A DNA stretch of 64,000 bases, taken from Yersinia massiliensis CCUG 53443. GTDB lineage: Bacteria > Pseudomonadota > Gammaproteobacteria > Enterobacterales > Enterobacteriaceae. The position numbers and the translations under genes are program-made. The notes beneath the pieces were generated by a model. That model worked only from the letters and a program-made list of their open reading frames with translations. It did no database searches and was not told the DNA's origin. The stretch spans positions 1,106,806 through 1,170,805 of the forward strand of contig NZ_HE997643.1 of the NCBI RefSeq assembly GCF_000312485.1, given 5' to 3'. Positions 4,051-39,995 of the stretch are shown here, piece after piece. How positions within the stretch are numbered: the stretch's first letter is position 1; each line of letters opens with the position of its first letter.

Positions 4051-4680
4051 ATGCTCAACACAATGAAACGTCACGGCATTACTCTGGCATTGTTTGCTGC
4101 AGGTGCCACGGGTTTGACCGCGGTAGTGAATGCCTTAACCGAAACGACTATCGCGCATCAAGCCGCTTTGCAACAAAAAGCGTTGCTCGATCAGGTGGTT
4201 CCGGCTGAGTATTACGATAATGACATGCAAGCAGAGTGTTACGTTGTCACTGATTCTGCGTTAGGTAATCTGGCCCCCCATCGTCTTTACTTAGCCCGTA
4301 AGGATAATAAACCGGTTGCCGTGGCCATTGAGACAACCGCGCCAGATGGTTATTCTGGTGCAATCCAATTATTAGTGGGCGCAGATTTTAAGGGCAATGT
4401 GCTCGGCAGCCGTGTGGTGGAACATCATGAAACACCGGGGCTGGGTGACAAAATCGAAGTACGCCTTTCTGATTGGATAACCCACTTCAGCGGTAAGCAT
4501 GTTGATGGCGAGCAAGATAAGCGCTGGGCGGTCAAAAAGGACGGCGGCGACTTTGATCAATTCACCGGTGCCACCATTACACCAAGGGCAGTTGTTCGGG
4601 CGGTGAAAAATACAGCGCTGTATCTGGAAACCCTGCCAGCCAAGCTCGATAGCTTGCCGGTTTGTGGAGAGAATCAATGA
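4051..4680 (+). CDS. rsxG: RsxG/RnfG, periplasmic flavoprotein subunit G
   Basis: A 209-residue single-span inner-membrane subunit with a periplasmic FMN-binding domain. The N-terminal hydrophobic anchor ([20 protein letters not shown]) is followed by an FMN-binding domain. The motif [15 protein letters not shown] near residues 174-188 contains the Thr that is covalently flavinylated in this family. TPGLGDKI is also typical. The stop overlaps the rsxE start in an ATGA arrangement, so the two are translationally coupled. Confidence 0.95.
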
Positions 4681-25686: not shown

Positions 25687-26583
25687 CTATTCGCTATTTT
25701 CAATATCAGCTATTGGTACAGTAACGTATTGGTATCCATTGTTACGATCCCAAGCTTTCACCGCCCCAAGTTCTTCGGTAAGTTGTTTGAAACCTTCATT
25801 AGGTGACTTATCTATTTTATTAGAATAATGATCTGTCCCATCAAATAACTCATCTATTTCATCAAGTAAAGAGTCTATTTCCCCGAGAGCTGAACTTTCC
25901 GCTGAACGTATTATTCCGACATCAGCCATATCATCCCAATCATAATCATCGTCAGGGGGGATTTTAATTTCTGCGCGATCATTAACTGTGAATGAAGCAG
26001 TATTGGCAGCAATGTAAGAACTAGGTGAGAATATTTTTTTAAACCAATCAATAATTCTTTCAGTAACTGTTCGACAATCCAGATCCTTCCTTAGCTCAAT
26101 CGGGCAGTTATCGTTAAATTCAAAATATACACGTGCTTTATTTTCATTTAACGTGAAGTCATCACCTAATAACATCTTACAATTCAATGTGAAAACCTCC
26201 CCCTCTACGTCGCTATAAGTCGCTGAGTAGACCATTTCAAGCGCTGAATCATCATTACGCTTAAATTCCATTGATATATGAGGATCATGATCTAAGTGGA
26301 GGTAGGTTTTATCACTATATTCAAGGACGACATCTGCCATAGAAAACTCACTTATTAAACTAAGCAAATTGACTCGTCTTTCACATTCATTAAAATCGCT
26401 AGGTGAATTTAGCCAACCTTTATGAACTAACTGCTCTAACACCTTACTGATATTGTCATGATCTGCAATATTATAACCATCAATATAGAAATGGGCTTTA
26501 TCGTGTATAGCGCCCTTTGTTTCTAAGGCTTGAACTGTATGGCTAATATCTATATTTGATATTGGGTAGGATATTCTATCCAT
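25687..26583 (-). CDS. Hypothetical acidic protein, unrecognised
   Basis: A 298-residue protein with no family I recognise. ATG 26583 is preferred over upstream ATGs because AAAGGA lies 6 nt upstream. It has no signal peptide or clear membrane segment and is rich in Asp/Glu (DDDYDWDDMADVG; LLDEIDELFDG). It is more AT-rich than acnA or cysB, suggesting acquisition by transfer. It lies between acnA and the old cysB 3' flank, outside the attachment repeats, so it is not part of the 12-kb element as now bounded. Confidence 0.6.
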   Translation of the reverse strand: MDRISYPISNIDISHTVQALETKGAIHDKAHFYIDGYNIADHDNISKVLEQLVHKGWLNSPSDFNECERRVNLLSLISEFSMADVVLEYSDKTYLHLDHDPHISMEFKRNDDSALEMVYSATYSDVEGEVFTLNCKMLLGDDFTLNENKARVYFEFNDNCPIELRKDLDCRTVTERIIDWFKKIFSPSSYIAANTASFTVNDRAEIKIPPDDDYDWDDMADVGIIRSAESSALGEIDSLLDEIDELFDGTDHYSNKIDKSPNEGFKQLTEELGAVKAWDRNNGYQYVTVPIADIENSE

Positions 26584-26679
26584 ATGCATTCCTTTTAATA
26601 GCATTCTGGGAATTGACATGAATTAAAATATCAAATGAATATTCTACTTTCTTTTATATTTTTACTTATTCTCTCTGAT

Positions 26680-26729: not shown

Positions 26730-26776
26730 TTACTTCGTCGGCAGCTTAATATCTTTAAACATCGCCTCGATATCTT
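26730..26776. repeat. Left attachment site (attL), duplicate of cysB 3' end
   Basis: A 47-bp exact copy of 38691-38737, beginning TTACTTCGTCGGCAGCTT. It is a remnant of the target gene's 3' end left by integration. The sequence diverges immediately on both sides. Confidence 0.92.
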
Positions 26777-26783
26777 TGAGTCG

Positions 26784-26805
26784 CTCCGCACAAGGCTTAG
26801 CGGAG
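26784..26805 (+). promoter_or_regulatory. Hairpin covering the integrase Shine-Dalgarno site
   Basis: CTCCGC (26784-26789) pairs with GCGGAG (26800-26805). The second arm contains the GGAG expected to initiate int at ATG 26816, so translation could be damped by the structure. Confidence 0.45.
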
Positions 26806-26815
26806 TATTGAAAGT

Positions 26816-27985
26816 ATGTACCAACGGAATTACACAGGAATCACACAGGTTTTTCGTCGTCCATCTGGATTGTATACATTTTGCAAGCATCATCATGGGA
26901 CAGCCATTCACATAACCCTTGGCACCAGAGATTCCTATGAGGCTGCGGTAATGTCTCGTAGTTTATTGATGGTTTATCATCAGCATTCCTGTGAACCACT
27001 TGAGACAGTACGTCAGATGCTCTATTCATGCAGAAAACAGCTTCAATTAACTGCTCTGGTGGGTTATGCCGTGCCGCCTTCTCTACCCCAAACTATGCCA
27101 GTTGTAGAGAGACCAATAAGGGCTGTTGCACCAAAACCAAAGAAAAACAGAGAGAAGCGTTTAACACTGTTAGTTGTTCTGGATGATTACTTAAAAAGTA
27201 ATAAAAACGATTGGAGGGAAAAGACGCTTAAAGTGAATGAATCACGCTGTCGTTACTTCATCGATTTTTTAGGTAATAGATTGATAACAGAAGTGAGTAA
27301 GTCTGATATTTCTGACTTTAAGCAGCACTTAGTCGATAAAGGATTCAGTCCTAATACATGCAATGATTATTTTATCAAGGCATCAGGGTTGTTCACATTT
27401 GCCTGTAAGCAACGGGATTTCATTACAAGAAGTCCGTTTGATGGGATGGGATTTAGGAAGGTATCAAATGTTACTGATAAGAGAGGGATACTCCATCTAG
27501 AGCATGAACAAGCACTTAAGGGCTTCCCTGAGCATTCACAGAATTGGTGGTTACTCCAGTTGCTTTGGTTCACTGGATGCAGGATAAGCGAGATAACACA
27601 GCTACAGCCAGCCGACTACCGTGTAATTGATGGAGTTGAGTGTATTTCTATAAACGATGAAGGGAATAAAACCCTTAAGAATGAATCCTCTACGCGAACC
27701 ATACCTATTCATGAAGACTTGCTAAAACTCGGTGTTTTCACTGATAAACCAACATTCACTTATACCCCAGATAGGGCTTCTCAGCTTGTTTCTTCAATCT
27801 ATACGGGAGTAGGCGTTACAGCACACAGCTATCGATATGGTATGAGTGACAGACTTAGAAAATTGAACATTCCTGATTATGTCAGATTTGAACTCTTAGG
27901 GCATGCACACAAGACAACTACCGATAGGATTTATAAATCAGACGATGCAATTATATTATTAAAGTCTGCTATAGATTTAACGTAA
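26816..27985 (+). CDS. int: Tyrosine integrase of the element
   Basis: A 389-residue site-specific recombinase, likely responsible for integration into cysB. The N-terminal segment (RRPSGLYTFCKHH, TLGTRDSYEAAVMSR) resembles the arm/DUF6538-like region of many phage integrases. It is followed by a SAM-like core-binding domain (residues about 117-205) and a catalytic domain with R in FTGCRISEI, H-x-x-R in TAHSYRYGM, H in LLGHAHKTT and nucleophile Y in DRIYKS. It lies next to attL and reads into the element, as is typical. Confidence 0.93.
   Translation: MYQRNYTGITQVFRRPSGLYTFCKHHHGTAIHITLGTRDSYEAAVMSRSLLMVYHQHSCEPLETVRQMLYSCRKQLQLTALVGYAVPPSLPQTMPVVERPIRAVAPKPKKNREKRLTLLVVLDDYLKSNKNDWREKTLKVNESRCRYFIDFLGNRLITEVSKSDISDFKQHLVDKGFSPNTCNDYFIKASGLFTFACKQRDFITRSPFDGMGFRKVSNVTDKRGILHLEHEQALKGFPEHSQNWWLLQLLWFTGCRISEITQLQPADYRVIDGVECISINDEGNKTLKNESSTRTIPIHEDLLKLGVFTDKPTFTYTPDRASQLVSSIYTGVGVTAHSYRYGMSDRLRKLNIPDYVRFELLGHAHKTTTDRIYKSDDAIILLKSAIDLT
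26832..26849. repeat. Possible integrase arm sites near attL
   Basis: Two copies of ACACAGG (26832-26838, 26843-26849) with an 11-bp period, inside the start of int. Similar 11-bp-period ACACA repeats lie beside attR. The role as arm-type sites is inferred. Confidence 0.35.
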
Positions 27986-28015
27986 AAAATTAGCAGTAGT
28001 TGTGAAAGATTCCAC

Positions 28016-28044
28016 TTGACCAAGAAACTGTTTTTACATACAGT
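28016..28044 (+). promoter_or_regulatory. SOS promoter: LexA box over sigma-70 elements
   Basis: -35 TTGACC at 28016-28021, a 17-nt spacer, and -10 TACAGT at 28039-28044. A LexA box CTGTTTTTACATACAG fills 28028-28043 and fits CTG-N10-CAG with the extended TA after it. LexA bound here would block the polymerase. It drives the 81-residue gene. Confidence 0.8.
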
Positions 28045-28052
28045 AAAATCAA

Positions 28053-28088
28053 CATGTAGTGAATTTTACCACGAAAAGGCACTACATG
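28053..28088 (+). repeat. Leader inverted repeat upstream of the SOS gene
   Basis: CATGTAGTG (28053-28061) and CACTACATG (28080-28088), a perfect 9-bp dyad with an 18-nt loop in the 5' leader. It could be a second operator or an mRNA stem. Confidence 0.5.
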
Positions 28089-28123
28089 GAGTAAACCCTA
28101 CACACAACATGAGATAAAAAAAT

Positions 28124-28369
28124 ATGACCAACACAAAGAAAACCTCGTCACAAATAGCATCGCAGGCGGCACAAATATTGAAAAATCCTAATGCTTCCGT
28201 GATTCAAAAGCAGCTTGCTGGTTCGGCACTATCCCAAGCAGGCACCAGCAACCAAACAGGTGCTCATATGGAGGAAGTAGCATCAAAAGTTCTGACAAGT
28301 CCTAAATACAGCGAACAGACTAAGACGCTTGCTGGATCAGTGCTCTCTCAAGCAAACAAAAGTCGTTAG
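28124..28369 (+). CDS. SOS-regulated small protein with internal duplication
   Basis: An 81-residue protein, family not recognised. It is built from two related units: LAGSALSQAG at residues 31-40 recurs as LAGSVLSQAN at 69-78, and SQAAQIL as ASKVL. It is Ser/Ala/Gln/Lys-rich, with no signal peptide and probably helical. The upstream LexA-type promoter makes it the element's clearest DNA-damage-induced gene. Candidates are an anti-repressor, an activator of the leftward genes, or a helper-interference protein; none is shown. Confidence 0.7.
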   Translation: MTNTKKTSSQIASQAAQILKNPNASVIQKQLAGSALSQAGTSNQTGAHMEEVASKVLTSPKYSEQTKTLAGSVLSQANKSR

Positions 28370-28375
28370 TGAGTA

Positions 28376-28408
28376 ATGACAACAGCCTCGCAATTGGGCT
28401 GTTGTCAT
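28376..28408. terminator. Hairpin between convergent SOS gene and tape-measure-like gene
   Basis: A 12-bp stem ATGACAACAGCC / GGCTGTTGTCAT with a 9-nt loop, 6 bp from both genes. It lacks a strong T-run. Confidence 0.65.
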
Positions 28409-28414
28409 GAAATC

Positions 28415-30217
28415 CTAGCGGTTTAGATATGAACTATTAATATCATTTAAGATGTTGTCGTTGTAACTATTGATATTATTTTCACTTATTAAATTAAATA
28501 CACCTTCGAGCTTTCCCGAATCTATGTTCAATTTCACATCCGCAGGTTTCACAGTTATATGATTTACTGGTGCTTGGTACTGACTACCGCCTTGGTACGG
28601 TGTAGGAGATAACATTGCTTGCGGTGTAGGCACCATCGCTGATTTGCTATCTTTAAACTGATTCTTCAATAGCTCCCAAGCACTCAACCCCATGATTAAA
28701 CTAGAGTTGGAATTCAATCTCCTTTGAGGTTCTTTAACACTTTCAAATAATTGTGCTTTTGTCTTTGGTTCGGCTAGTTGGTTAACAGAGAATCCAGTAA
28801 GCTTGATTATATTTGCAATGATTTTGCCCAATCCCTCGACAAGAGGTGTTAACTGACGCATAGCTTCGGCTAGGCCATCCGTTCCACCCATCGCGTTACT
28901 AAGACTGATTGAGAACTTATCGCTTAATGTTTGTGATGCATCTTTAACAGCTATTCCCCACTCTCTCAAACGGGTAAGACTCGCTAACTGTTCATCAGTC
29001 AACAGCTGACCTTTTTTCTTCATATCTTGAAGGGTATCAATTACTTGCTTGCCATTGTCAGCAAAGAGCCCACTTACTCTCGATAGGTCATTCACGGTCT
29101 CGGTATAATAACGCATCTCGGATGCACTCTTTTTAAGCTGCTTACCATTGGCCACCATATTTACAACGAACTCACCAGAGGTCATTTTACCGATATCTTT
29201 GATGGAATAGCCCAACGGCTTAAACAAATCGTTATAAACATCGGTCAGCTCACCACCACCTTTCAGCTTGCCGGTCTTCTTGTCAAAAGTTCCTTGGCTG
29301 GTAAGTTCACCAATCTTTTCTTGTAAGTCTTGGAAAACATTATCTAAATTTGCATCAATCCCTTTGGTCCGTACCAATTTTTGAAGCGCCTGTGCTTCGT
29401 AACTATCAGCACCAGCTTTAGTTAACTTATTGATACTTTTAGCACGGTCTACAGATGAACTGGCACTGCTATACGCGGCGTAAGCCCCGCCTACAGCACC
29501 AGCTGCCATCATTCCCCCCAAACCCACACCTAACAAAGCACCACCACCGTTCCGGCCTTCTGCTGCTCTTGTTTTGGCTGTCTCTCGTTTAAGTCTACGA
29601 GCCTGTGCCTCAGCTCTACGGGTATTTGCCACTAAGAAACGCATTTGTTGATTCATCTCACTGAGGTCTAAGTTACCTTTTTTGTACTCTTGGCTCAGGA
29701 GCTTTGCTTGCTGGATTGCTTTATAACGTTGCCCGACCCCCAGATTCTCCATTCTACTGATAGTAAACGTTGTATCACGGAGTTTCATTGTCCCGTTAAT
29801 TTCCCGTTTCAGTGCTAATTCTGATTGTTTCTTTAACTGTAAACGGCGCTTCTCAGCCTGTGCAGCCTCTTTAGTTGCTTTAGTTTGGGCTTGTTGAGCT
29901 TTCCCTGTCTGTTCCATCTGCTTTGACTGCAATAAGCTTGTCTGTAGCCAGTCTTTATGGGGTTTTCCTAGCATACCTGTTAGGCCACCCTTTGCACCTG
30001 CACTGCCATATACCTTCTTCATCGCGCTTACTTGAGCCTGTGCTGACTGTTTCGCTATCTTGACACTATTAGCTGCCGACTTGGGAGTAATGCTATTATC
30101 TAGAATTCCAGCTGCTTCTTTCTTCAGCTTTTTCATGTCGTCTTTGATTTTCTTTAGGCTTTGGGTATCTGTTTGATACTTAACAATGTTTGTTAACTTG
30201 GCTGCTGTTATATTCAT
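28415..30217 (-). CDS. Tape-measure-like / internal virion protein
   Basis: A 600-residue protein. The first about 220 residues are charged coiled coil (QAQTKATKEAAQAEKRRLQL; ARRLKRETAKTRAAEGRN). A Gly/Ala-rich hydrophobic stretch (about residues 224-252, LLGVGLGGMMAAGAVGGAYA) and further helical segments follow. This pattern is characteristic of phage tail tape-measure or DNA-ejection proteins. If it measured a tail at about 1.5 angstrom per residue the tail would be short. No tail tube or assembly genes accompany it. The leader carries AATAATAACAACAAGAGG. The assignment is by architecture only. Confidence 0.6.
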   Translation of the reverse strand: MNITAAKLTNIVKYQTDTQSLKKIKDDMKKLKKEAAGILDNSITPKSAANSVKIAKQSAQAQVSAMKKVYGSAGAKGGLTGMLGKPHKDWLQTSLLQSKQMEQTGKAQQAQTKATKEAAQAEKRRLQLKKQSELALKREINGTMKLRDTTFTISRMENLGVGQRYKAIQQAKLLSQEYKKGNLDLSEMNQQMRFLVANTRRAEAQARRLKRETAKTRAAEGRNGGGALLGVGLGGMMAAGAVGGAYAAYSSASSSVDRAKSINKLTKAGADSYEAQALQKLVRTKGIDANLDNVFQDLQEKIGELTSQGTFDKKTGKLKGGGELTDVYNDLFKPLGYSIKDIGKMTSGEFVVNMVANGKQLKKSASEMRYYTETVNDLSRVSGLFADNGKQVIDTLQDMKKKGQLLTDEQLASLTRLREWGIAVKDASQTLSDKFSISLSNAMGGTDGLAEAMRQLTPLVEGLGKIIANIIKLTGFSVNQLAEPKTKAQLFESVKEPQRRLNSNSSLIMGLSAWELLKNQFKDSKSAMVPTPQAMLSPTPYQGGSQYQAPVNHITVKPADVKLNIDSGKLEGVFNLISENNINSYNDNILNDINSSYLNR

Positions 30218-30274
30218 TATTTATCTTCCTCTTGTTGTTATTATTTCCGTTCGCTCTATTTAGATAAAAAAAAT

Positions 30275-30297
30275 AGCCCAGCTATTTAGGCTGAGCT
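30275..30297. terminator. Bidirectional terminator upstream of the tape-measure-like gene
   Basis: AGCCCAGC / GCTGAGCT (8 bp, one G-U) with a 7-nt loop, A-run before and T-run after. It would stop leftward transcripts of the HTH gene, so the 600-residue gene needs its own promoter or antitermination. Confidence 0.75.
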
Positions 30298-30494
30298 TAT
30301 TTTTTAGATTGAAGTGGTAATGTCAGCGCATCCTCGAGTGACATATTCTGTTGTTTCATCCGCCAATGTACCGTTGATTCCGAAATATTGAATAGCTTTG
30401 CAAGTTGTCTAATGTTCAAGACATTCAATACATCATTGCCAGATATACGTCGAATTACACGGTGTGAGCTACCCTCTTCTAGGCAAATAACCAT
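30297..30494 (-). CDS. Small helix-turn-helix protein
   Basis: A 65-residue protein whose C-terminal part NIRQLAKLFNISESTVHWRM followed by KQQNMSLEDALTLP reads as a helix-turn-helix like those of small phage regulators or excisionases. ATG 30494 has AGAGG 9 nt upstream. It lies between the capsid gene and the tape-measure-like gene, an odd place for a regulator, with terminators on both sides. Confidence 0.6.
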   Translation of the reverse strand: MVICLEEGSSHRVIRRISGNDVLNVLNIRQLAKLFNISESTVHWRMKQQNMSLEDALTLPLQSKK

Positions 30495-30534
30495 AATACA
30501 ATACCTCTATATAATATAAATGATAGATAAATAA

Positions 30535-30617
30535 GAACGGGGCTAATATAAACCCCGTTCAAAAATAGAATAAGTAGGCATGTAAAGAGGGTAAGCATTA
30601 TATTAATAAATACCCTC
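30535..30617 (-). terminator. Two hairpins after the capsid gene
   Basis: GAGGGTA / TACCCTC (30587-30593, 30611-30617; TTTACA follows on the minus strand) and GAACGGGG / CCCCGTTC (30535-30542, 30553-30560; TTATTT follows). Both lie just downstream of the capsid gene stop on the minus strand. Confidence 0.7.
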
Positions 30618-30626
30618 ACACCTAAC

Positions 30627-31670
30627 TTAAGCTTTGATAGACAGACTGAACGTAGATTGCGGTAAGTTATTCACAGCCAGCATGCTGAATTCACTCACAA
30701 CAGTTGGGAAGCCCCATTCATTTACAGGAAGCATATACTGCAAGAACGAGCCTTGCTCACCTACCATAAAGGCTGATTTAACCGCAGGCCCAGCATGGTG
30801 AACGTGGACACGACTATTCTTGTTGAATTTCGTAACCATATAACCGCCATTATCAGGGATGCTATATTGGGCGTTTTGTCCCGTCACGTCAATAAACACA
30901 ATTCCCTTGTAAACCCACATCTGGTATGCAGGAAGCAATTCAGTATATTGTGATAAAAAGTTATCAGCTGACAGACTCGATAAATTATAAATCATTGTCT
31001 CGGCAACGCTTGGATGATAGCGCAATTGGTTAGCTAATTCACCTGAACAAATAATAAAGCGTTGCTCAACATCACCATTCTTACCTTGGCATTCAATCTG
31101 GGATTGTTGAATCAAACTGTCTAATTGTTGAGGGACAGATTTACCTACAGCAAAATCAAATTCAATATTAGTTTGAGTGGTTCCTGAAAATTCGTCGAAA
31201 TAGTTCAAATCACCTTGCCCAGCATATTGAGATTTAGAAACCCCACGTAATACTGAACCCGCCAGAATCTTATCTTTAGTATTATAAAATTGAATAGCTT
31301 GTTTTTCTACCAATTCTAATTTAGCTTGCTGTAATGATTGATCATTATCAGAGCCAGCACGACGGAAGCGTTCTAGGTCACGGCTCGTAAGTTCATCAAC
31401 GCTGCTGAAATACGGGAGCTGATATAAATAGTTAGAGAACTGGGGACGGAGAATCGTGTTGAAATCTGGGCCATATGGAACGTTCTCATTAAACACCTGT
31501 TCTGCACGGTCTAATAAGCGATCGAGGCTAACGTTTAATGTATCGTGGGTTTCTACACTAAATAAATTCAATGCGTTAAATAGTCGGTTTGGGACTTTAA
31601 TTTTTTTATACAATTCACCAAGGGAAACGATTTGGTCACTTGGATTACTTGGGGCACGATTAAAAGCCAT
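30627..31670 (-). CDS. Major capsid protein, lambda gpE-like
   Basis: A 347-residue protein matching the lambda gpE family (major capsid protein E, HK97 fold) in length and layout: an N-terminal arm, a central segment SLQQAKLELVEKQAIQFYNT leading to KILAGSVLRG, a segment equivalent to gpE's NIIVFDP region (FIICSGELANQLRYHPSV), and a C-terminal ending with a Met/Leu-rich strand region (VSEFSMLAVNNL). It follows a decoration-like gene as E follows D in lambda. Homology was judged by pattern; a profile search would settle it. The leader has AATAATAATAAGGAAG. Confidence 0.75.
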   Translation of the reverse strand: MAFNRAPSNPSDQIVSLGELYKKIKVPNRLFNALNLFSVETHDTLNVSLDRLLDRAEQVFNENVPYGPDFNTILRPQFSNYLYQLPYFSSVDELTSRDLERFRRAGSDNDQSLQQAKLELVEKQAIQFYNTKDKILAGSVLRGVSKSQYAGQGDLNYFDEFSGTTQTNIEFDFAVGKSVPQQLDSLIQQSQIECQGKNGDVEQRFIICSGELANQLRYHPSVAETMIYNLSSLSADNFLSQYTELLPAYQMWVYKGIVFIDVTGQNAQYSIPDNGGYMVTKFNKNSRVHVHHAGPAVKSAFMVGEQGSFLQYMLPVNEWGFPTVVSEFSMLAVNNLPQSTFSLSIKA

Positions 31671-31780
31671 ATTATATATCTTCCTTATTATTATTTTATT
31701 TTCACTTACTCATGCAAGTGTTTTTATTATTTTATTGTTTAGAATTAAAATTAGATTATTATTGTTATCTTTTTAGTCTG
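31671..31780 (-). promoter_or_regulatory. A/T-rich leader of the capsid gene
   Basis: 110 bp between decoration-like and capsid genes, almost only A and T on the minus strand. It contains AACAATAATAAT and AATAAAATAATAATAAGG and a small hairpin CACTT-GCATGAGTA-AGTG. The AACAATAATAAC-like motif recurs in front of most leftward genes of the element. Confidence 0.5.
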
Positions 31781-32128
31781 TTACTGAAGACGGAAACCGT
31801 CAGCAATCAATAGTGTTCTTGATTTAGTTAGACCTGCGGTATCCGCTGCCTGCAAGACTGCCTCGCGCAACACTACTCCAAAAGGATTTGCTACACGGAT
31901 TGTTTGTGATGCACCTGCTGGGTAATCCTCCAAGACTACGTAGACCTTTGTACTTGATGAGGTTGCTAATGCACCTGATGTGGTATCAATAACTGAACCT
32001 GCATAGGTAATAGCTGGGAGCGTAATAGTTACAAGCTTTTGACAGAAAATGTGATCAGCCGCATATGCGATTATATCATTCTGGCCCAGTGGCGATGTGC
32101 CAGTTTTACCGTATTGTTGTAGTGACAT
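31781..32128 (-). CDS. Head decoration-like protein (gpD position)
   Basis: A 115-residue beta-rich protein (QKLVTITLPAITYAGSVIDT, TKVYVVLEDYPAGASQTIRV). It sits directly upstream of the capsid gene, has no signal peptide, and has the size of lambda gpD (110). Such proteins stabilise the expanded head after DNA packaging. Assignment rests on size, composition and position. The leader is AACAACAAAAGGAAATAATA. Confidence 0.55.
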   Translation of the reverse strand: MSLQQYGKTGTSPLGQNDIIAYAADHIFCQKLVTITLPAITYAGSVIDTTSGALATSSSTKVYVVLEDYPAGASQTIRVANPFGVVLREAVLQAADTAGLTKSRTLLIADGFRLQ

Positions 32129-32151
32129 ATTATTATTTCCTTTTGTTGTTA

Positions 32152-32442
32152 TTATTGTTTGTATTTATTAGATAAAGAGTCTTCGAAAGATTTTAGAATA
32201 TCGTTATTATTTTCTTCTTCTTTGATATCTACTTCTTCAAGGGTAATACCTGCAATTTCTAGAGCTTTAAGTAATTCCTCTGTAATATTAGTTCCTCGAG
32301 CTTTAAAAACTAACGCTTTGTTATAACCGGATGCTGCACCACCTTGAATAGATAGTGTATAGGCGAGGTGTGGCCCCAGTGGAGCTTTTTTATCAGCCTC
32401 CCAATCAAAGGTGACGTCTTTTAGTAGTTTTTTTGGTTTCAT
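32152..32442 (-). CDS. Small acidic protein upstream of the decoration-like gene
   Basis: A 96-residue protein that I do not recognise. The middle part GPHLAYTLSIQGGAASGYNK is followed by a helical acidic tail (ITEELLKALEIAGITLEEVD). The position before the decoration and capsid genes would suit a scaffold or head accessory role, but nothing in the sequence shows this. ATG 32442 has GAGG 5 nt upstream. Confidence 0.55.
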   Translation of the reverse strand: MKPKKLLKDVTFDWEADKKAPLGPHLAYTLSIQGGAASGYNKALVFKARGTNITEELLKALEIAGITLEEVDIKEEENNNDILKSFEDSLSNKYKQ

Positions 32443-33067
32443 CTAACCTCATATTATTTAATGTTATTATTGTTCACTTTGAAAAGCCTCTTGAGTTGAC
32501 TTGAATCGAATATTTTTAATTTTAGAGAATAAATAAATAAACAAGAAATAATCAAAATCAACAGCAAGAGACTTTTGAAAGTATTTTAAAGTTAAATTGT
32601 TACTTTGATTGTTACTATTAGAAGATAAGTATATGAATTAATTGAACTACGAAAAAATGCAGTTTAAAGTTAAAATAATGGGCTCTACCACACCCAGTGA
32701 TAGAACCCTTATCTTTATGCAAACAAACAACAAGGAAGTAACAATGAAGAAATAAGATTATCAGAGAAATGAACGTGAAGAGCGTATCATTTATTAAAGT
32801 CTCTAAAGTAAAGACCTTAAGAAATGCATCTGTAGCAGTTGTGCCAGAAACACAAAGGAATTGTCCCACAGATAAACATTATATTACGAAAAATTAAGTT
32901 GGCACAGAACTTTCGTTAAATTTTAAGGAGAGGAATTCTTATGGCTATTATTCGTGGTAATAAGTTTCAAATCATCCCTCTATAATCTATTATACCATAA
33001 TTCGGTATTGACTACAATATATTGTGGTGGTTTTCCTTGACTATTTATTATTTATTTTAAATGAATC
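32443..33067. other. Gene-poor stretch with short plus-strand remnants
   Basis: About 625 bp, very AT-rich. On the plus strand there is a 42-codon frame at 32769-32897 (MNVKSVSFIKVSKVKTL...) and a 14-codon frame at 32941-32985 (MAIIRGNKFQIIPL), the latter with AAGGAG 10 nt upstream. Both may be broken gene starts. An imperfect hairpin at 32680-32708 (GGGCTCTA / TAGAACCC) could end leftward transcripts. A minus-strand 83-codon frame at 32618-32869 is Phe/Leu-rich and not convincing. Confidence 0.4.
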
Positions 33068-33391
33068 TCACGCAAGGATATTACCCATTCCTGCTAACTC
33101 ATCTTGGAACTCTTTCATGGCTGCTTCTGCGCATCGGAGAGCGATACGACTTACTACGTTAGCTCTCGTAATTAATTCAGGGTGGTTCTCTATAATAAAA
33201 TCTTCATTCGGTTCAATAACCGCTGCCATAGCGTCTAGTTTATCTTCAGTCCACTGCATAAGTTCGATTAGATTAATGTCATCTCTGGTAAAGTAATCTA
33301 AATCAAGGTAGACAGATTCTAATTCAGTAATTGCCTTACCGACTTTTTTGATAATCTTCTTTTCGGCTCTTCTCTGTAGAAAATAAAACAT
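33068..33391 (-). CDS. Hypothetical protein of the element
   Basis: A 107-residue, largely helical protein beginning MFYFLQRRAEKKIIKKVGKA and containing ITELESVYLDLDYFTRDDIN. ATG 33391 follows AAGGAAACCAAAATT; the longer frame to 33487 is not supported. Its leader again carries AACAATAATAATAAAAAACA. No family recognised. Confidence 0.6.
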   Translation of the reverse strand: MFYFLQRRAEKKIIKKVGKAITELESVYLDLDYFTRDDINLIELMQWTEDKLDAMAAVIEPNEDFIIENHPELITRANVVSRIALRCAEAAMKEFQDELAGMGNILA

Positions 33392-33489
33392 AATTTTGGT
33401 TTCCTTGTTTTTTATTATTATTGTTTGGCTTTTATATATCACCGCATTCTGACGGAGCGAACACGGTATTTTAATCGAGTACACCATAA

Positions 33490-33552
33490 GGCATAGGGTA
33501 GCTTGGGTTTATAGAGAACTCTATTCCTACAAGGCACAATCGCTTCTGAATC
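33490..33552. repeat. 63-bp direct repeat, copy A
   Basis: Begins GGCATAGGGTAGCTT and ends CTTCTGAATC; aligns without gaps to copy B at 35265-35327 with roughly ten differences. Both copies can be read as the peptide pattern RTxxLQGxIxSES, so they may be fragments of a duplicated coding sequence. Confidence 0.7.
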
Positions 33553-33742
33553 TTATAGTAACGCTACTGCGGTTATTACCATCGTTGCGGCTGGTAGCTG
33601 TGAAATAATTAATCCTGGTGCTACTATTGGCAAAGCCGCCACGGTCAAAGTCACCAGAAATAGTAAAATTAGTATTCTCAATTCACCTCCTGTTCAATTC
33701 TCTTTGATTCCTGTTGGGCTATCCACACCAAATAACCGCTAA
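33515..33742 (+). pseudogene. Start-less plus-strand reading frame, probable gene remnant
   Basis: A 75-codon open frame preceded by an in-frame TAG and lacking any ATG. The peptide, including ATAVITIVAAGSCEIINPGA and VTRNSKISILNSPPVQFSLI, is beta-rich and protein-like. It runs against the neighbouring leftward genes and overlaps the 48-codon gene at its end. It looks like the surviving 3' part of a structural or adhesin-type gene; the family is not recognised. Confidence 0.5.
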
Positions 33743-33824
33743 TACTCCACCCACGAGCATTGCACTCTTTTAGTAGCAGTTGGTACTGGTAGCTTTCCAA
33801 TTCTATAATTAATTTCTTCTTCAT
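33678..33824 (-). CDS. Short ribbon-helix-helix-like protein
   Basis: A 48-residue protein starting MKKKLIIELESYQYQLLLKE and continuing CNARGWSISGYLVWIAQQ. The layout, a short strand followed by two helices, fits a ribbon-helix-helix DNA-binding fold. ATG 33824 has GAGGATC 7 nt upstream. A plausible repressor or excision cofactor for the element; below usual length cut-offs. Confidence 0.55.
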   Translation of the reverse strand: MKKKLIIELESYQYQLLLKECNARGWSISGYLVWIAQQESKRIEQEVN

Positions 33825-33835
33825 TTTATGATCCT

Positions 33836-34054
33836 CTATTCGTGAACTGGAACCCACATACCAGCCTGATGCTCGTTTAACTCGTACTGGTCGCGACGGT
33901 TAAAGTACAACCAGCCCATATGGGGGATTTTTGCATAGTCTTTTTGATAAACACCGCCATCTAAATAATCCACACCATCTTCAGTGACCTTAAGAGGTTT
34001 CTTTCTTTTCTTCTTGAGGTGTTCTATCTCTGCTGCTGTCAGGGCATAGTACAA
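33836..34054 (-). CDS. Hypothetical protein of the element, start uncertain
   Basis: At least 72 residues (LTAAEIEHLKKKRKKPLKVT; MGWLYFNRRDQYELNEHQAG). The only conventional start is TTG 34054, with no good Shine-Dalgarno site. The frame stays open upstream to about 34142 (IERKQKYNDCVNSQIKHPND), where GGGGGT precedes ATT/GTT codons. A rare start codon or a lost N-terminus is possible. No family recognised. Confidence 0.45.
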   Translation of the reverse strand: MYYALTAAEIEHLKKKRKKPLKVTEDGVDYLDGGVYQKDYAKIPHMGWLYFNRRDQYELNEHQAGMWVPVHE

Positions 34055-34160
34055 ATCATTAGGATGTTTAATTTGGCTGTTTACACAATCGTTATACTTC
34101 TGTTTACGTTCAATATTGCATGTACGAATAACACCCCCTATTTAGAATAAGATTTAGACT

Positions 34161-34718
34161 CTACGCTGCTATACTTTCATTTTTATAATGTACTTCATCG
34201 TAAAATTTTAAAACATCTGGCAGGCTACCGTGGAGACTCAAAATATGTAGCTTATGCATTTCATCATCAGAGGCTTTGATGGCAGAACTTACTGACTGTT
34301 GCATAGTAATATCTGGTGGTGTAATAGCTTGTTGCTCCAGAATAGAGCCGCGACTACCACGAAATTTATTATTAATTGGATTTAGTCTATGATGAGCAAT
34401 AGCCTTGGATGCAACCTTGAGCACATTTGTATAGTTCTTTACCGTTGTATCACAATAACCTTTCTCGTCTTCATCAAAGATTACCTTTTTTCTATCAAAG
34501 TAACTTTTCACCGTAATAGTAGATAGTGTTTCAAGTGCTTGTAAGGCACGAAAGAATCGATAAGGTGATAATCTGGTATCTTTACCCGCCTGACCTAATG
34601 CGCCGCATATGCAGCTATCAACCCAATCAGGTAGTTCTTCATAATCCCAATAATCATTTAAATAATGTTTTGTTTCTTTATTGCAGACAGTAATAACGCT
34701 ACCCTTAGTTCTTGCCAA
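34161..34718 (-). CDS. Hypothetical protein of the element
   Basis: A 185-residue protein. TTG 34718 is taken as the start because a consensus AGGAGG lies 5-6 nt upstream. A basic N-terminus (ARTKGSVITVCNKETKHYLN) precedes a mostly helical body (PYRFFRALQALETLSTITVK; TTVKNYTNVLKVASKAIAHH). No catalytic motif is seen. A small-terminase-like or replication role was considered and cannot be supported. Its leader contains AACAATAACAATAAC. Confidence 0.6.
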   Translation of the reverse strand: MARTKGSVITVCNKETKHYLNDYWDYEELPDWVDSCICGALGQAGKDTRLSPYRFFRALQALETLSTITVKSYFDRKKVIFDEDEKGYCDTTVKNYTNVLKVASKAIAHHRLNPINNKFRGSRGSILEQQAITPPDITMQQSVSSAIKASDDEMHKLHILSLHGSLPDVLKFYDEVHYKNESIAA

Positions 34719-34736
34719 TCTTCCTCCTAGTTATTG

Positions 34737-34955
34737 TTATTGTTTAGCCTCTTCTTGCAATTCTTTTAACTTTTGTTCTAACACGTGCATTTTATAAAGT
34801 ACGATGGCCTGTGAGTACATGTTCCTACGCGAAGCACTAAGACCAGATCTAGGCTGAATGTAAGTTCGAAGTGCTGAGTATGCGAGTTTCCCTGAAAGGA
34901 TATCCGCTAATGTTTCTTCTGCTGTATTACGAACTGTTTGTTTAGTTTTCTTCAT
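34737..34955 (-). CDS. Small basic protein, first gene of the leftward set
   Basis: A 72-residue helical protein (MKKTKQTVRNTAEETLADIL; IVLYKMHVLEQKLKELQEEA). ATG 34955 has AAGGA about 9 nt upstream; a TTG seven codons earlier is less likely. It is the promoter-proximal gene after the long non-coding region and lies just beyond a terminator-like hairpin. No family recognised. Confidence 0.55.
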   Translation of the reverse strand: MKKTKQTVRNTAEETLADILSGKLAYSALRTYIQPRSGLSASRRNMYSQAIVLYKMHVLEQKLKELQEEAKQ

Positions 34956-34978
34956 TCTTTTTTTCCTTTTGTTCAATG

Positions 34979-35006
34979 CAAAAAGGCCACCTCTATTGGG
35001 TGACCT
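34979..35006 (-). terminator. Leftward terminator/attenuator before the first leftward gene
   Basis: On the minus strand AGGTCACC / GGTGGCCT (one G-U, 7-nt loop) is followed by TTTTT at 34983-34979. It would end transcripts coming from the non-coding region 24 nt before the ATG of the 72-residue gene, so it may separate a non-coding RNA from the structural genes or attenuate them. Confidence 0.7.
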
Positions 35007-35264
35007 CAGACGATTAATTTATTTTAACTATCTTTCTAGCTTAGAAACAAACTCTCTTACTCCTACTATTTATAATACATCAGATTTGGAATAATGTCAA
35101 TATATAAGTAATATTATTTTTGTTATGTATATCCAATATTACAATAACAGAAATAAAATCGTTTTACAAGCAGTCTGATTGATTAATAGATAAAACCTTG
35201 TACGGCTTATTTTCTCTATATATCTCTTGTTGATTCCCCCTTGTTTTAGCCCTTCATGCTGATA

Positions 35265-35327
35265 GGCATAGGGTAGCTTAGGTTTTAATAGAACTCGTCT
35301 TCTACAAGGCATAATCCCTTCTGAATC
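35265..35327. repeat. 63-bp direct repeat, copy B
   Basis: Partner of 33490-33552, same orientation, same length. Its plus-strand frame reads GSLGFNRTRLLQGIIPSES without the stop found in copy A, but ends at a stop shortly after. Confidence 0.7.
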
Positions 35328-35411
35328 GTGCCTCTATCCTTGCATATTAGATAAACCATCTGTAAGACTGTCTGTAAGGTTATCTATAAGGTTGTAGCCT
35401 GTCTGTCATTT

Positions 35412-36071
35412 ATAAAAGCCACTACTATAAGAGATAAGAATAAATCGACATCCCGACTGTCTTTCTGACACTCTGACTATCGATTACTTCTAACATTCGT
35501 TTACTGAGTTAATCACTCTAAGCTATCGCTTCTCATGCTAAACCTCAGACTCATGTTATAAAACGCATTACTATATAATAGGGTCTTCTTTCGCTACGCT
35601 CACACCGACCCCCCTACTAACTGTAACCGTATAATTAAATGATTAATGAACACGATAAACCCATGTCCCTTACTCTTTTAATGATACGTAACACTCGATA
35701 ACCAAACCATCACATATGTAATGATAAAGATATTACACTATGCAATATTCTTGGTCTCGTGTCTCTTCTATCTACTTGTGCAAGCTGTTAGCTAACAGCT
35801 TGCACAATGTATATATTATTAAAATCTTGCATGGTTTGCTGTGTTGACCTTGTTCTTTAGTTCTTTCAGCCCTTATAGGCTTAAGATTATTCTTTTCTTT
35901 CTCTGTTTATTAAAAACGTTCTTCTAAAAGCCTATTACATACTTTCCAGTTAGATTGGGTGTGTGTAGCTGGTACAGCGTTACTGGAACACATTATCTAT
36001 TATGGCTGTGAACACTCTAACCGAGTGAGTATCACTCTTTCAGCCATTACTCTTATAGTAGTGGCTTTTAT
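35412..36071. repeat. 22-bp perfect inverted repeat pair flanking about 616 bp
   Basis: 35412-35433 starts ATAAAAGCCACTACTATAAG; 36050-36071 is its exact reverse complement. The right arm also forms the 3' side of a terminator-like hairpin. The pair could frame an invertible segment or be shared regulatory DNA. Confidence 0.75.
35776..35807. repeat. 32-bp perfect palindrome
   Basis: Two 16-bp halves, TTGTGCAAGCTGTTAG and CTAACAGCTTGCACAA, with no spacer. Such length without mismatch is unusual. It resembles in form protelomerase, resolvase or replication-origin sites, and differs from a terminator in lacking a T-run and loop. Confidence 0.9.
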
Positions 36072-36164
36072 TCCTGACTCTTACAGAGTCTATAGTAGAT
36101 CGTTTTATCGGTGTAAGAATGGGATGCTTAAGGAGTGAGTAACGACACACCGATAACTACTATA
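36003..36164 (+). ncRNA. Cluster of hairpins, possible structured RNA or origin
   Basis: Consecutive stems: TGGCTG/CAGCCA (36003-36008, 36041-36046) enclosing GAGTGA/TCACTC; AGCCATTAC/GTAGTGGCT (36042-36050, 36058-36066, one G-U) followed by TTTTATT, a terminator-like stem that competes with the first; GACTCT/AGAGTC (36076-36090); and nested TATAGTAG...TATCGGTGT with ACACCGATA.CTACTATA (36091-36164). The density is far above the surroundings. Confidence 0.5.
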
Positions 36165-36794
36165 AGTATGTCGTTTTATTTTTAGTTAGAAACGCCTATT
36201 ATCTTTGTTATAATAGGATCAACAGATTCAACAATAAGCCCCGTTCTATGAGTATACCATTCATGAAGTCACCATCTACACCACTTAACAGTATCCAGTG
36301 CATTATCACCCCTAACAAAAATGATCTAAATCAATAAGTTGAAAATAAATACGTCTTTCATATAGGGTAAACAACTATTAGTCATTTTGAAAACTGGTTG
36401 TGGCGATCGAACTCTCTTAATCGATCGGTTAAATCTATCGCTTATACCTATCACATTTCCTTATTTGATTGTTTATACTGATCAAAAACAACAGTTAATA
36501 TAGGGTTTATATAACCTTTAAATAACCGGTAATGATGGTGTAATGATTTGTCTGGTTAGGCAGTGATTACAACAGTGCATATACATCTATATGAGCTTAG
36601 AAGCCCCGCCCTACCTGAATCCACAATAAAATGGAGGTAAAAAGATACTAAGCGAATATCTCTTTCCATCCTCAAAACCATGCAAAAATGAACTACAAAT
36701 GAAAATTTTATTATTGTTTGTTGTTGATATGCATTCTCATGTTTAACACATAACAAAGAGGTGTTTAGATGTTATGCCTAAGTCACACATTGGT

Positions 36795-36886
36795 ATTCTG
36801 TGATATAGAAAACACTCGTAATCATTGACTATTCCATCTTTTAGATTAAACTGACTTCATACTAAACATTCTGTGACTTAGAAAAC
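36795..36886 (+). repeat. Direct repeats upstream of the second recombinase
   Basis: A 19-bp sequence ATTCTGTGA(TA/CT)TAGAAAAC occurs at 36795-36813 and 36868-36886, 73 bp apart, the second 26 bp before the recombinase start. Possibly recombinase binding sites or operators for autoregulation. Confidence 0.6.
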
Positions 36887-36911
36887 CCAGTAAACAAAGG
36901 GAAGTGGCTAG

Positions 36912-37460
36912 ATGAACCTCGTTGATGCAGTCAAGACAAGTGAACAAGCCGAGCAGGTAGGCGAACTACTCCTAAAGCATGGCAATCAAACCTATGCTGA
37001 TATCTGGAACTTTGGCCTACAGGTAGCCTTACGCATATCTGACCTGCTATCTCTGACTTATGCAGACGTACAAGGGGACAGGTTGACTATCATTGAAGGA
37101 AAGACCAGCAAGCCTCGTCACATCCTGCTAAACGGCAAGGCTAAAGCCATTGTAGAGCGTCGCAAAGCTGCCAACCCTACTCATGTATACCTATTTGAAG
37201 TGTCTACTAATAGAGCCAAAGGGAAGCCTATAAGTAGGGAGAACGTATCTAGAAAGTTCAAAGAGATAGGTGAGATTATAGGTATTGCTTTAGGCACTCA
37301 CAGCATGAGGAAAACGAGAGGATGGGTAATGTACAACTCAGGGATAAACATAGAAACAATTGCAAAGGTGCTAAATCACAGCACCCCAGCTATCACTATG
37401 CGCTATATCGGTTTAGACCAACAGACAGTTGATAATACTTACACTACCTTCATCATCTAA
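36912..37460 (+). CDS. Minimal tyrosine recombinase
   Basis: A 182-residue protein that is almost only a catalytic domain: R in VALRISDLLSL, Lys in EGKTSKPRH, H-x-x-R in THSMRKTRG, H in VLNHSTP and likely Tyr in MRYIGL. It lacks a full core-binding domain, a size seen in FimB/FimE-type and some phage recombinases. GGGAAG lies about 7 nt upstream of ATG 36912. Its site may be the nearby direct repeats or the 32-bp palindrome. It probably does not mediate integration, for which the 389-residue enzyme is better placed. Confidence 0.88.
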   Translation: MNLVDAVKTSEQAEQVGELLLKHGNQTYADIWNFGLQVALRISDLLSLTYADVQGDRLTIIEGKTSKPRHILLNGKAKAIVERRKAANPTHVYLFEVSTNRAKGKPISRENVSRKFKEIGEIIGIALGTHSMRKTRGWVMYNSGINIETIAKVLNHSTPAITMRYIGLDQQTVDNTYTTFII

Positions 37461-37721
37461 TCACACCATGCTAGCGCCTTGATAACCCTTGCATTTAGCC
37501 CCTTTACGGGCCTTAGTCATACATACCCACAGCTATACACCAACCCTTCTGTACGGGCTTCCTATGCGCTTAAACAGCTAACGATATTTTAGGATTATAA
37601 TGCGAATGATTCTCGCCTGTGGTGAAGTGCTTAGAAGGTAGGACACTGAGACGGATATTTTTAAGGCAAGAAAGATAGGAGAGTAGCCCCTTTTTTTAAA
37701 AGAGGCCAAAATGGGAGGGGG
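37461..37721. other. Intergenic region of the element
   Basis: 261 bp between convergent recombinase and HNH-like genes. It includes an imperfect stem GCCCCTTTT-TTT-AAAAGAGGC (about 37686-37706) suited to terminate one or both genes. Nothing else seen. Confidence 0.4.
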
Positions 37722-38513
37722 TTATTGGTGGTGTTTTTTACTTTTATTAATAGCTAAATTAAACATTTCTCTTATTACTTTGAGTTCGCCAATCTCAATC
37801 TTCATAATATTAGCACTACTACCATTCACTATTTGATATTGTATTCTTCTGGCTCTAACATCATGTATATCTTTCCCTGGACTAAGATAGTAAACGATTA
37901 AAAAACCCTCAAGCATAAGGTAAAATATAGCAACCTTCTCAATATTACTTTTATCCATTCTGAAGTTCATCATTACGTTCTTAATCATATCGTCAGAGAT
38001 ATTATTTGAACTATCAACCACTCTAGCCACTGATAATCTTAAAAAATGGTCAATTCTTAAGCTATTGCCTCGTCCAAGTTTCATTCTGTTATTTATAATG
38101 CAAAACTTTAAAAGATCTTCAAACTCACCACCTAAAGCGATACTTTTAAAATTATCATTACTAGTTAGTGATGCTCTCCATAATATGCTTATGAAATATA
38201 GATAAAATCTCTTGTAATCGAAGCCATTTATTGTAATCCGATCGTCCTGCTTAATAACATTCTTCGAAGTTCTAAATATTTTAGTCCCATAAGATTCATA
38301 TTTTACACTAAGGAACTGTTCACATTCGGTGCAAAGTAGTTTTTCTTTTGGGTCTGAATTACTGAGTCGAGGTTCTATCTCATCACTATCAACAATGACA
38401 ACTAATTGGTTTGATTCTCTTTTAAGACGCTTATAGTAACTGCGTGGGATTATATGCGAGTTCTGCAATACAGCACTTTTACCACACAATTTGCACTCTT
38501 CTAAAAGCTCCAT
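37722..38513 (-). CDS. HNH-like zinc-finger protein, probable cargo
   Basis: A 263-residue protein. ATG 38513 has GGAG 5 nt upstream; a longer frame to 38630 lacks support. The N-terminus has C7-x2-C10, then SHIIPR (19-24), then C61-x2-C64, the layout of an HNH-type treble-clef (Cys pairs bracketing a His motif). The remaining about 190 residues are helical without recognised motifs. Proteins of this kind are often nucleases in defence or phage modules. It is the outermost gene, next to attR and in the same direction as cysB, where element cargo is commonly found. Confidence 0.6.
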   Translation of the reverse strand: MELLEECKLCGKSAVLQNSHIIPRSYYKRLKRESNQLVVIVDSDEIEPRLSNSDPKEKLLCTECEQFLSVKYESYGTKIFRTSKNVIKQDDRITINGFDYKRFYLYFISILWRASLTSNDNFKSIALGGEFEDLLKFCIINNRMKLGRGNSLRIDHFLRLSVARVVDSSNNISDDMIKNVMMNFRMDKSNIEKVAIFYLMLEGFLIVYYLSPGKDIHDVRARRIQYQIVNGSSANIMKIEIGELKVIREMFNLAINKSKKHHQ

Positions 38514-38559
38514 TGTTTCTCCAATGTGGTGGATAAACCTGCGTTCTAATGAAATGTGA

Positions 38560-38588
38560 AACAGAGGGGGTTGATCCCCTCCTCTGTT
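38560..38588 (-). terminator. Hairpin between cysB and the HNH-like gene
   Basis: AACAGAGGGGG / CCC..CCTCTGTT with a 2-nt bulge and 5-nt loop. It is the first strong hairpin met by cysB transcripts entering the element and may replace the lost cysB terminator. Confidence 0.5.
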
Positions 38589-38613
38589 GAGTCTAAGCTC
38601 ACGGCGGAAAGTT

Positions 38614-38641
38614 ACACATAACTCACACATAACTTACACAT
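38614..38641. repeat. Possible integrase arm sites near attR
   Basis: Three ACACAT units at an 11-bp period (38614, 38625, 38636), the first two extended to ACACATAACT, 50 bp inside attR. The ACACA core is shared with the repeats near attL. Confidence 0.45.
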
Positions 38642-38690
38642 GTGAGCGACCACGATTTTTAGAGGCAGATGTAAGCTGTTGATTTAGTTA

Positions 38691-39995
<1,305 letters not shown>

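Follow-up and report, generated by a model that had tools for sequence, protein, structure and literature searches.

A cysB-integrated element of Yersinia massiliensis with its own capsid and tape-measure genes is a likely satellite of large virulent myophages

Introduction

P4-like satellites are marked by Psu/Sid/alpha-type genes, and canonical phage-inducible chromosomal islands (PICIs) by an AlpA regulator and the PICI gene order. Here we describe a 12,008-bp integrated element of Yersinia massiliensis CCUG 53443 with capsid and tape-measure genes of its own, located in a 64,000-nucleotide stretch of contig NZ_HE997643.1 (assembly GCF_000312485.1, positions 1,106,806 to 1,170,805 of the forward strand), hereafter the window, to which coordinates without a locus name refer. 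Family scans of the element proteins returned no AlpA match (a 65-aa helix-turn-helix (HTH) protein is present), and no Psu/Sid/alpha-type family was among the Pfam, PHROGs (one scan with 25 of its 28 families listed) or NCBIfam results.

Capsid-forming PICIs (cf-PICIs) share with this element an integrated state, a capsid protein of their own and a need for helper tails; their helpers are described as temperate (PMC10803314). According to PMC10690885, the gene content of cf-PICIs includes a portal, a protease, connectors and both terminases, whereas none of these was found here and a tape measure protein (TMP) is present. The window element has its own major capsid protein (MCP) but no portal, head-tail connectors, large terminase or small terminase of its own, and is therefore not a cf-PICI. 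MulchRoom and MiniFlayer, satellites of Streptomyces phages, are described with their own capsid genes, virulent helpers and direct terminal repeats (PMC10690885), features with likely counterparts in the elements studied here, but they encode both terminases, a portal and a head-tail adapter, which our elements do not.

The phage-inducible chromosomal island-like elements (PLEs) of Vibrio cholerae, with ICP1 as helper, are alike in having a satellite scaffold, a large virulent myophage as helper (inferred here) and a need for the helper portal; PLE also is described as lacking a portal gene, so that it should depend on the portal of ICP1 (PMC10945586). Further likenesses are a swappable initiator-iteron replicon and a phage nuclease, Odn, that copies the initiator DNA-binding domain (PMC8263062). 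PLE remodels the ICP1 coat with TcaP, and an MCP of its own is not part of the cited description (PMC10945586), whereas the window element itself encodes an MCP, a decoration protein and a TMP. SaPIbov5 Ccm is likewise a satellite-encoded homologue of the helper capsid protein (PMC8569155), but a single capsid-redirecting gene rather than a cassette with scaffold, decoration and TMP genes. The phage-inducible chromosomal minimalist island (PICMI) adjoins fis and carries AlpA and a primase but, in the account of PMC10803314, no capsid genes, in contrast to the cysB site and capsid gene found here. In 2024, that account named no satellite families other than PLE and PICMI for which virulent helpers were known; MulchRoom/MiniFlayer (PMC10690885) and satellites of Streptococcus thermophilus (PMC13376191) are reported as further cases. 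We recognised no description of the present family in the literature searched, which left subscription papers and preprints mostly outside, so that an earlier description is possible. The initial annotation of this DNA could not place the element among P4-like satellites, PICIs, cf-PICIs or PLEs, and it indeed appears to fit none of these classes.

Results

An element inserted at the 3′ end of cysB

The element occupies 26730-38737 of the window, between acnA and cysB (named from inspection of window translations) in a host genome of 5.05 Mb (G000), and is bounded by an exact 47-bp direct repeat, with attL at 26730-26776 and attR, the 3′ end of cysB itself, at 38691-38737. The initial annotation had given the span 28415-34955 for a candidate capsid-encoding satellite; the five proteins that it highlighted (347, 115, 96, 185 and 600 aa) are intact open reading frames in that place, but the repeats put the borders of the element further out. 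From left to right, the genes are an integrase (+), an 81-aa gene (+), a minus-strand block running from the TMP gene to a 79-aa gene, a short recombinase (+) and a 302-aa gene. Four congeners were inspected at cysB (G040, G176, G380 and G257, for the last of which 1.5 kb did not settle the site). G040 and G176 have an empty site, where a single att copy is present and sequence of the acnA side begins to match some 1.5 kb away from cysB; the acnA end itself is visible at the empty site of G176. In G380 (L102, 2200-2389), two short related-element fragments and a partial second att lie by cysB, perhaps a relic or another element.

Shell and tail-ruler genes

The 347-aa MCP, of gpE type (30627-31670, minus strand), matches Pfam Phage_cap_E (E=8.6e-9, above the family cut-off), PHROG 29 ‘major head protein’ (9.3e-12) and phi92 gp124 (2.9e-11, phmmer). 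A profile of 26 satellite MCPs, holding no phage row, found the solved phi92 gp124 at 2.6e-37 together with five other solved capsid proteins. The gpE-like capsid assignment made in the initial annotation is thus borne out, and the HK97 fold that it proposed to check for is supported by the profile matches to solved capsid proteins, not by structure prediction. Identification of the 600-aa protein (28415-30217, minus strand) as a tape measure also held: it matches phrog_16051 at 4.2e-15 and phi92 gp134 at 2.9e-16 (phmmer), and a five-row satellite-only TMP profile matched the solved phi92 gp134 at 1.3e-83. A further TMP profile (A10) held phi92 and ESCO5 rows, and its match was left uncounted. 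With the TMP of a relative as query, tblastn matched 131 phage records.

The 96-aa protein encoded at 32152-32442 (minus strand) would be a mini-scaffold, comprising the N-terminal domain of a phage scaffold and a short C-terminal tail. It matches phrog_2970 at 1.2e-15 and the phi92 scaffold at 1.9e-10 (phmmer), and aligns with the N-terminus of scaffold-position genes in large myophages. Its residues 7-95 are 40.7% identical to phi92 gp122, a ‘potential scaffold’, and its residues 3-66 share 54.7% identity with the N-terminus encoded by gene 134 of Vibrio phage qdvp001, a gene placed between those for the portal and the MCP. We take qdvp001 to be ICP1-like, its record saying only Caudoviricetes. 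These phage proteins have 371-380 residues, most of which are gone from the window protein, and in the Escherichia coli-type relative L075 a 70-aa protein at the scaffold position resembles phi92 gp122 residues 303-368 (33.8%, E=0.003 in a three-sequence set); both may be cut-down scaffolds.

A 115-aa protein (31781-32128, minus strand) had been called gpD-like. Its position, its alignment with relatives and the match of one relative to PF02924 suggest a decoration protein, although this is the weakest of the four structural calls. The protein itself has no family match in Pfam or PHROGs. The Pfam scan covered 73 proteins of eight elements, in selected frames of roughly at least 90 aa, and one of the 73 matched the lambda gpD family PF02924 (2.8e-4). 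Against the PDB, a profile of five satellite decoration proteins matched only unrelated chains and no phage decoration protein. Another profile, A11, weakly matched a phage decoration protein (9cul, 8.6e-5); it held a phi92 row, and its phi92 match, which exists by construction, was not counted.

Genes not found

The statement of the initial annotation that terminase, portal, tail tube and lysis genes are missing agrees with both of our searches. The 73 proteins gave 15 Pfam families, among which there was no terminase, portal, protease, sheath, tube or lysis family, although short holin-type genes could escape. With 24 phi92 proteins as queries, from the spanin gp118 and the terminase gp119 through to the tail protein gp141, phmmer was run on the stop-to-stop frames of 31 loci, excluding eight TMP-profile loci without an MCP match (L066-L073). 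None of the 31 had a homologue of the phi92 terminase, portal, neck, sheath, tube, chaperone, hub or spike. At E<1e-3, homologues were found of the scaffold (one locus, the window), the MCP (16), the TMP (17) and the Dit-like gp135 (8), whereas the phi92 decoration protein had only weak matches in three loci (0.0045-0.012). The gene set of an autonomous phage or prophage (terminase, portal, tail tube, lysis) was therefore not found, with the proviso that very short lysis genes could escape. Identity of the Dit-like protein to phi92 gp135 is 61% in L075 and 70% in L053. The element proteins matched 28 PHROGs families, 25 of them listed; one label there, ‘endolysin’ (phrog_1517), was set aside, the protein being the Dit-like one and not a lysis gene.

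A family spread across Enterobacteriaceae

Among 392 genomes of the host family, 22 (the host among them) carry relatives of the window MCP. We mapped 32 loci (the window, L025-L029 and L048-L073; single-linkage clusters), several of them cut by contig ends and two, L025 and L026, being near-copies. The gene set recurs in other genomes, as the initial annotation had suggested checking: the MCP is present at 24 of the 32 loci, from 22 enterobacterial genomes and mostly with the same cassette, the decoration protein at 21, the TMP at 17 by cluster (with just a 65-aa piece in L062) and at 16 by profile, the integrase at 16, a winged HTH (wHTH) protein at 15 and the short recombinase at 14. Members include Kosakonia oryziphila, Kluyvera georgiana and Citrobacter sp., and integration was seen at tRNA-Gly (with 23-bp repeats at the tRNA end), tRNA-Leu, tRNA-Thr and cysB. 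In blastn searches the L052 cassette matched 395 of 5,426 complete E. coli genomes (393 of the 395 records at 60-80% identity, none over more than 80% of the query), and the 20 matches listed all fall on an annotated ‘major capsid protein’; a second cassette type was found in 12 of the 5,426 at 80-90%. Among viral contigs, no relative was found when the window MCP or the first alignment served as query, and nine loci were found with an E. coli MCP.

MCP dN/dS was 0.047-0.135 in all 15 pairs among the E. coli-type members L075, L079, L080, L084, L085 and L060; dS was saturated in six MCP pairs with L053, two MCPb pairs, one TMPb pair and the window-L027 MCP and TMP pairs, and the window-L027 row for the 79-aa protein was dropped as apparently invalid, the L027 stretch having probably begun too far upstream. 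In a tree of 25 satellite and six phage MCPs, the satellites form one side of a branch with 100/100 support. Between the window and its sister element L027, the integrase, att and recombinase regions are 88-95% identical in DNA, whereas the MCP and TMP are 25% and 42% identical in protein and a 185-aa gene replaces the wHTH gene; the shell cassette has thus been exchanged within one integration lineage.

Links to Stephanstirmvirinae

Scaffold, decoration, MCP, TMP and Dit homologues stand in the same relative order in phi92 and ESCO5 as in the elements, but these are virulent phages of about 145-151 kb with a whole motor, neck and tail, and with MCPs about 24% identical. In PMC12846349, the capsid proteins of ICP1, phiTE, Sf14 and Adele are placed on one branch. 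Megablast of the 12-kb tRNA-Gly element L075 against 50,697 phage records matched 62; in the 20 listed, short stretches aligned with phages of about 145-151 kb and with tRNA genes. A 46-bp site of L075 (4864-4909) recurs, with identities reaching 95.7%, in 60 of the 50,697 records, every one of them 129.8-154 kb long. Its position in phi92 is 318-363, and the annotated direct terminal repeat, identical at both ends, covers 1-343; with 26 bp within and 20 bp beyond the repeat, the 46-bp copy spans the cut end and is probably a packaging site in E. coli-type members. Coliphages of the Stephanstirmvirinae group are recorded on K-12.

Chimeric phage nucleases that match satellite initiators

Phage muut shares 428 bp (97.0%) with L075, over the start of the wHTH initiator gene, and its gene muut_154 combines the initiator DNA-binding domain with a MUG113 domain (1.8e-4, just above the cut-off; T5orf172 at 0.03 was under it). 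Genes of inny (inny_184), Mt1B1_P17 and BI-EHEC have the C-terminal part in common with muut_154 but different N-termini, which match other satellite initiators: that of inny matches L079 (720 bp, 94.9%) and L051 (626 bp, 96.2%), and L085 matches BI-EHEC (322 bp, 95.3%) and Mt1B1_P17 (438 bp, 86.8%). The chimeric nuclease-like genes of muut, inny, Mt1B1_P17 and BI-EHEC (L086 2558-3556, L087 1084-2187, L088 1542-2528 and L094) thus present three N-terminal types that match three satellite initiators, and all four phages are filed under Stephanstirmvirinae. Of 76 records matched by muut_154, six are these four phages and the other 70 fall below 60% identity, those listed covering the nuclease part only.

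All or part of the muut segment is present in 265 of 5,426 E. coli genomes. Of the 40 listed, two were inspected and have the segment inside such an element, and in two others, NCTC10973 and JNEC-KY202, it is 2.0-2.4 kb from an MCP match of the L052 cassette search. The backbones of L079, L085, L080 and L084 are for the most part shared with L075 (83-98% in the main blocks), whereas the start of the initiator gene is not alignable to L075 in any of the four, nor is the iteron region in two (L079 and L084). In the ICP1-PLE system the N-terminal domain of Odn is reported as 42% identical in protein to PLE1 RepA_N, and PLE swaps RepA-origin modules (PMC8263062); the phage chimeras found here reach 97% identity in DNA. 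The E. coli relatives and large virulent phages seem to be engaged in an arms race. Helper nucleases that copy an initiator DNA-binding domain, as in the PLE conflict, were found for the E. coli-type relatives and not for the window element.

Other genes and sites of the element

The 389-aa tyrosine integrase (26816-27985, plus strand) matches Phage_int_SAM_5 (2.8e-6), Phage_integrase (5.3e-6) and phrog_1 (2.9e-32), with a dN/dS of 0.12 between the window and L027. A second, short tyrosine recombinase of 182 aa (36912-37460, plus strand; Phage_integrase 1.4e-20) has a dN/dS of 0.065 in the same comparison. An 81-aa protein (28124-28369, plus strand; phrog_5079 1.6e-23) is conserved in L027 and has one LexA-like box upstream (28028-28043), the sole basis for the SOS gene of the initial annotation. 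The window holds three such boxes against 0.86 expected, at least three arose in 8 of 100 shuffles, and no box was seen in L027 or in most other elements checked; SOS control, a weak link with a single box by this gene, was set aside.

Between the MCP and TMP genes lies that of the 65-aa HTH protein (30297-30494, minus strand; HTH_24 1.5e-4, just under the cut-off), which has a homologue in L027. Genes for 139 aa (33068-33487) and 79 aa (34737-34976), both on the minus strand, are conserved in L027, and overlapping minus-strand frames encode 59 and 72 aa (33678-34054). The 185-aa protein (34161-34718, minus strand) had been among the five put forward for structural checks, but it matches phrog_23123 (2.7e-8), a family of unknown function, which lends a structural role no support; occupying the place of the L027 wHTH initiator, it may be a replication protein. 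A 64-bp direct repeat has one copy immediately upstream of the 139-aa gene (33489-33552) and a second, 84% identical, at 35264-35327. The two copies are close to where two gene groups begin, L027 has a pair of similar appearance (4328-4389 and 6423-6484), and the repeat is possibly a control element, such as a shared promoter or operator. Repeated 50-74-bp blocks also precede the decoration, MCP and TMP genes of L027 (7796-7875, 8220-8299 and 9741-9820).

A 302-aa protein (37722-38630, minus strand) with weak HNH resemblance (HNH_2 0.048, under the cut-off) has no homologue among the 32 mapped loci and no PADLOC match, and is possible cargo. PADLOC, run on nine proteins for defence cargo, gave one 25-residue DarT match (L056) and nothing else. 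Just beyond the left att, a 310-aa gene without a family match (25687-26619) has a homologue in the same place in L027 (13845-14639). In four loci a longer TMP-like gene (706-726 aa) lies upstream, not downstream, of the decoration and MCP genes (L049 7062-9227, L050 11456-13588, L059 5776-7956 and L063 11352-13472), and the replication region of two members encodes a helicase-like protein of DEAD/ResIII type (phrog_2467, 489-494 aa; L029 6176-7660 and L048 from 12810).

Discussion

Comparative sequence analysis makes it likely that the window element is an integrated satellite of a family fitting no named class, one that brings shell and tail ruler itself and would rely on large virulent myophages for portal, terminase, lysis and the greater part of the tail. 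The initial annotation had likewise read it as a satellite with its own shell and borrowed packaging; it had all tails borrowed as well, which the TMP of the element, and the Dit-like protein of some relatives, reduces to most of the tail. For the family as a whole, we favour a picture in which widespread enterobacterial satellites prey on Stephanstirmvirinae and related myophages with a dedicated shell, their own TMP (in some also Dit) and the helper terminase, engaged through a copied terminal-repeat end. Capsid cassettes and replicons would be swapped among them, and the phages would respond with nucleases in which the DNA-binding half has been exchanged to match the satellite, which would make this a second conflict, apparently of independent origin, of the Odn-PLE type.

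We propose that infection by a large virulent myophage would switch the island on, whereupon it would excise and replicate with its own initiator. The satellite MCP would assemble its own, probably small, capsid on the mini-scaffold, with the helper portal built in, and the helper terminase would package satellite DNA, in E. coli-type members through the copied terminal-repeat end. A helper tail would then be laid on the satellite TMP and helper lysis would complete particle release, while phages may strike back with nucleases bearing the DNA-binding domain of the satellite initiator.

Several observations weigh against this interpretation. The window MCP is only about 24% identical to that of phi92, its structure prediction from 12 sequences gave a pLDDT of 33 and no usable fold, and the window TMP alone found no phage by tblastn. 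Eight of the 24 MCP loci have no TMP profile match, and a fourth initiator type (L080, L084 and L060) has no matching nuclease N-terminus among the four phages. The MCP tree holds six phages only and carries a long-branch warning that includes the window branch, so the order within its satellite side is unsure. Finally, the right 6.3 kb of the window element matched no phage DNA in the collection (the left 5.7 kb was outside the search), and the 46-bp site is absent from the element; the putative helper, a myophage akin to phi92 or ICP1 and infecting the host of the element, is thus proposed from protein homology alone.

Among the alternatives, the MCP might co-assemble with the helper capsid or poison it to alter its size, as do SaPIbov5 Ccm (PMC8569155) and the external scaffold TcaP of PLE (PMC10945586) in the published accounts. 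The missing portal and terminase mean that the helper procapsid pathway must be entered, and the cut-down scaffold would suit such a role; yet MCP, decoration and mini-scaffold genes have been kept together, and the low MCP identity to phi92 would make mixed lattices improbable, so we hold this to be unlikely. We give slightly less credence to a satellite whose helper, for the window element, is a temperate lambda-like phage. The initial annotation looked for helpers among co-resident prophages, but the genome has no second related MCP (one match, that of the window), and the homologies of the mini-scaffold, MCP and TMP favour large virulent myophages instead. The lack of a phage DNA match in the right 6.3 kb is compatible with a temperate helper, as is the LexA-like box by the 81-aa gene, which would suit induction alongside a prophage but is missing in L027.

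A decayed prophage, the alternative raised in the initial annotation, or an immobile set of phage genes kept for superinfection interference, would account for the missing key genes, and present-day movement is unproven. This we consider very improbable: the frames are intact, the att repeats perfect and congeners without the element exist, and the same reduced set recurs in many genomes and at several sites. Purifying selection on the MCP of E. coli-type members, the separate satellite MCP clade and the near-identical pieces of E. coli-type elements carried by phages argue in the same direction.

A satellite of large virulent myophages that comes with a shell and a tail ruler yet lacks portal and motor would bridge those that take whole particles (P4 and PLE) and those that take tails only (cf-PICI). 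Its E. coli members are common and tractable, with cassette matches in hundreds of complete genomes. They open the questions of how a foreign portal would enter a satellite shell and how tail length would be set, of how often virulent phages may transfer bacterial DNA, and of whether origin-directed nucleases may be a general phage weapon.

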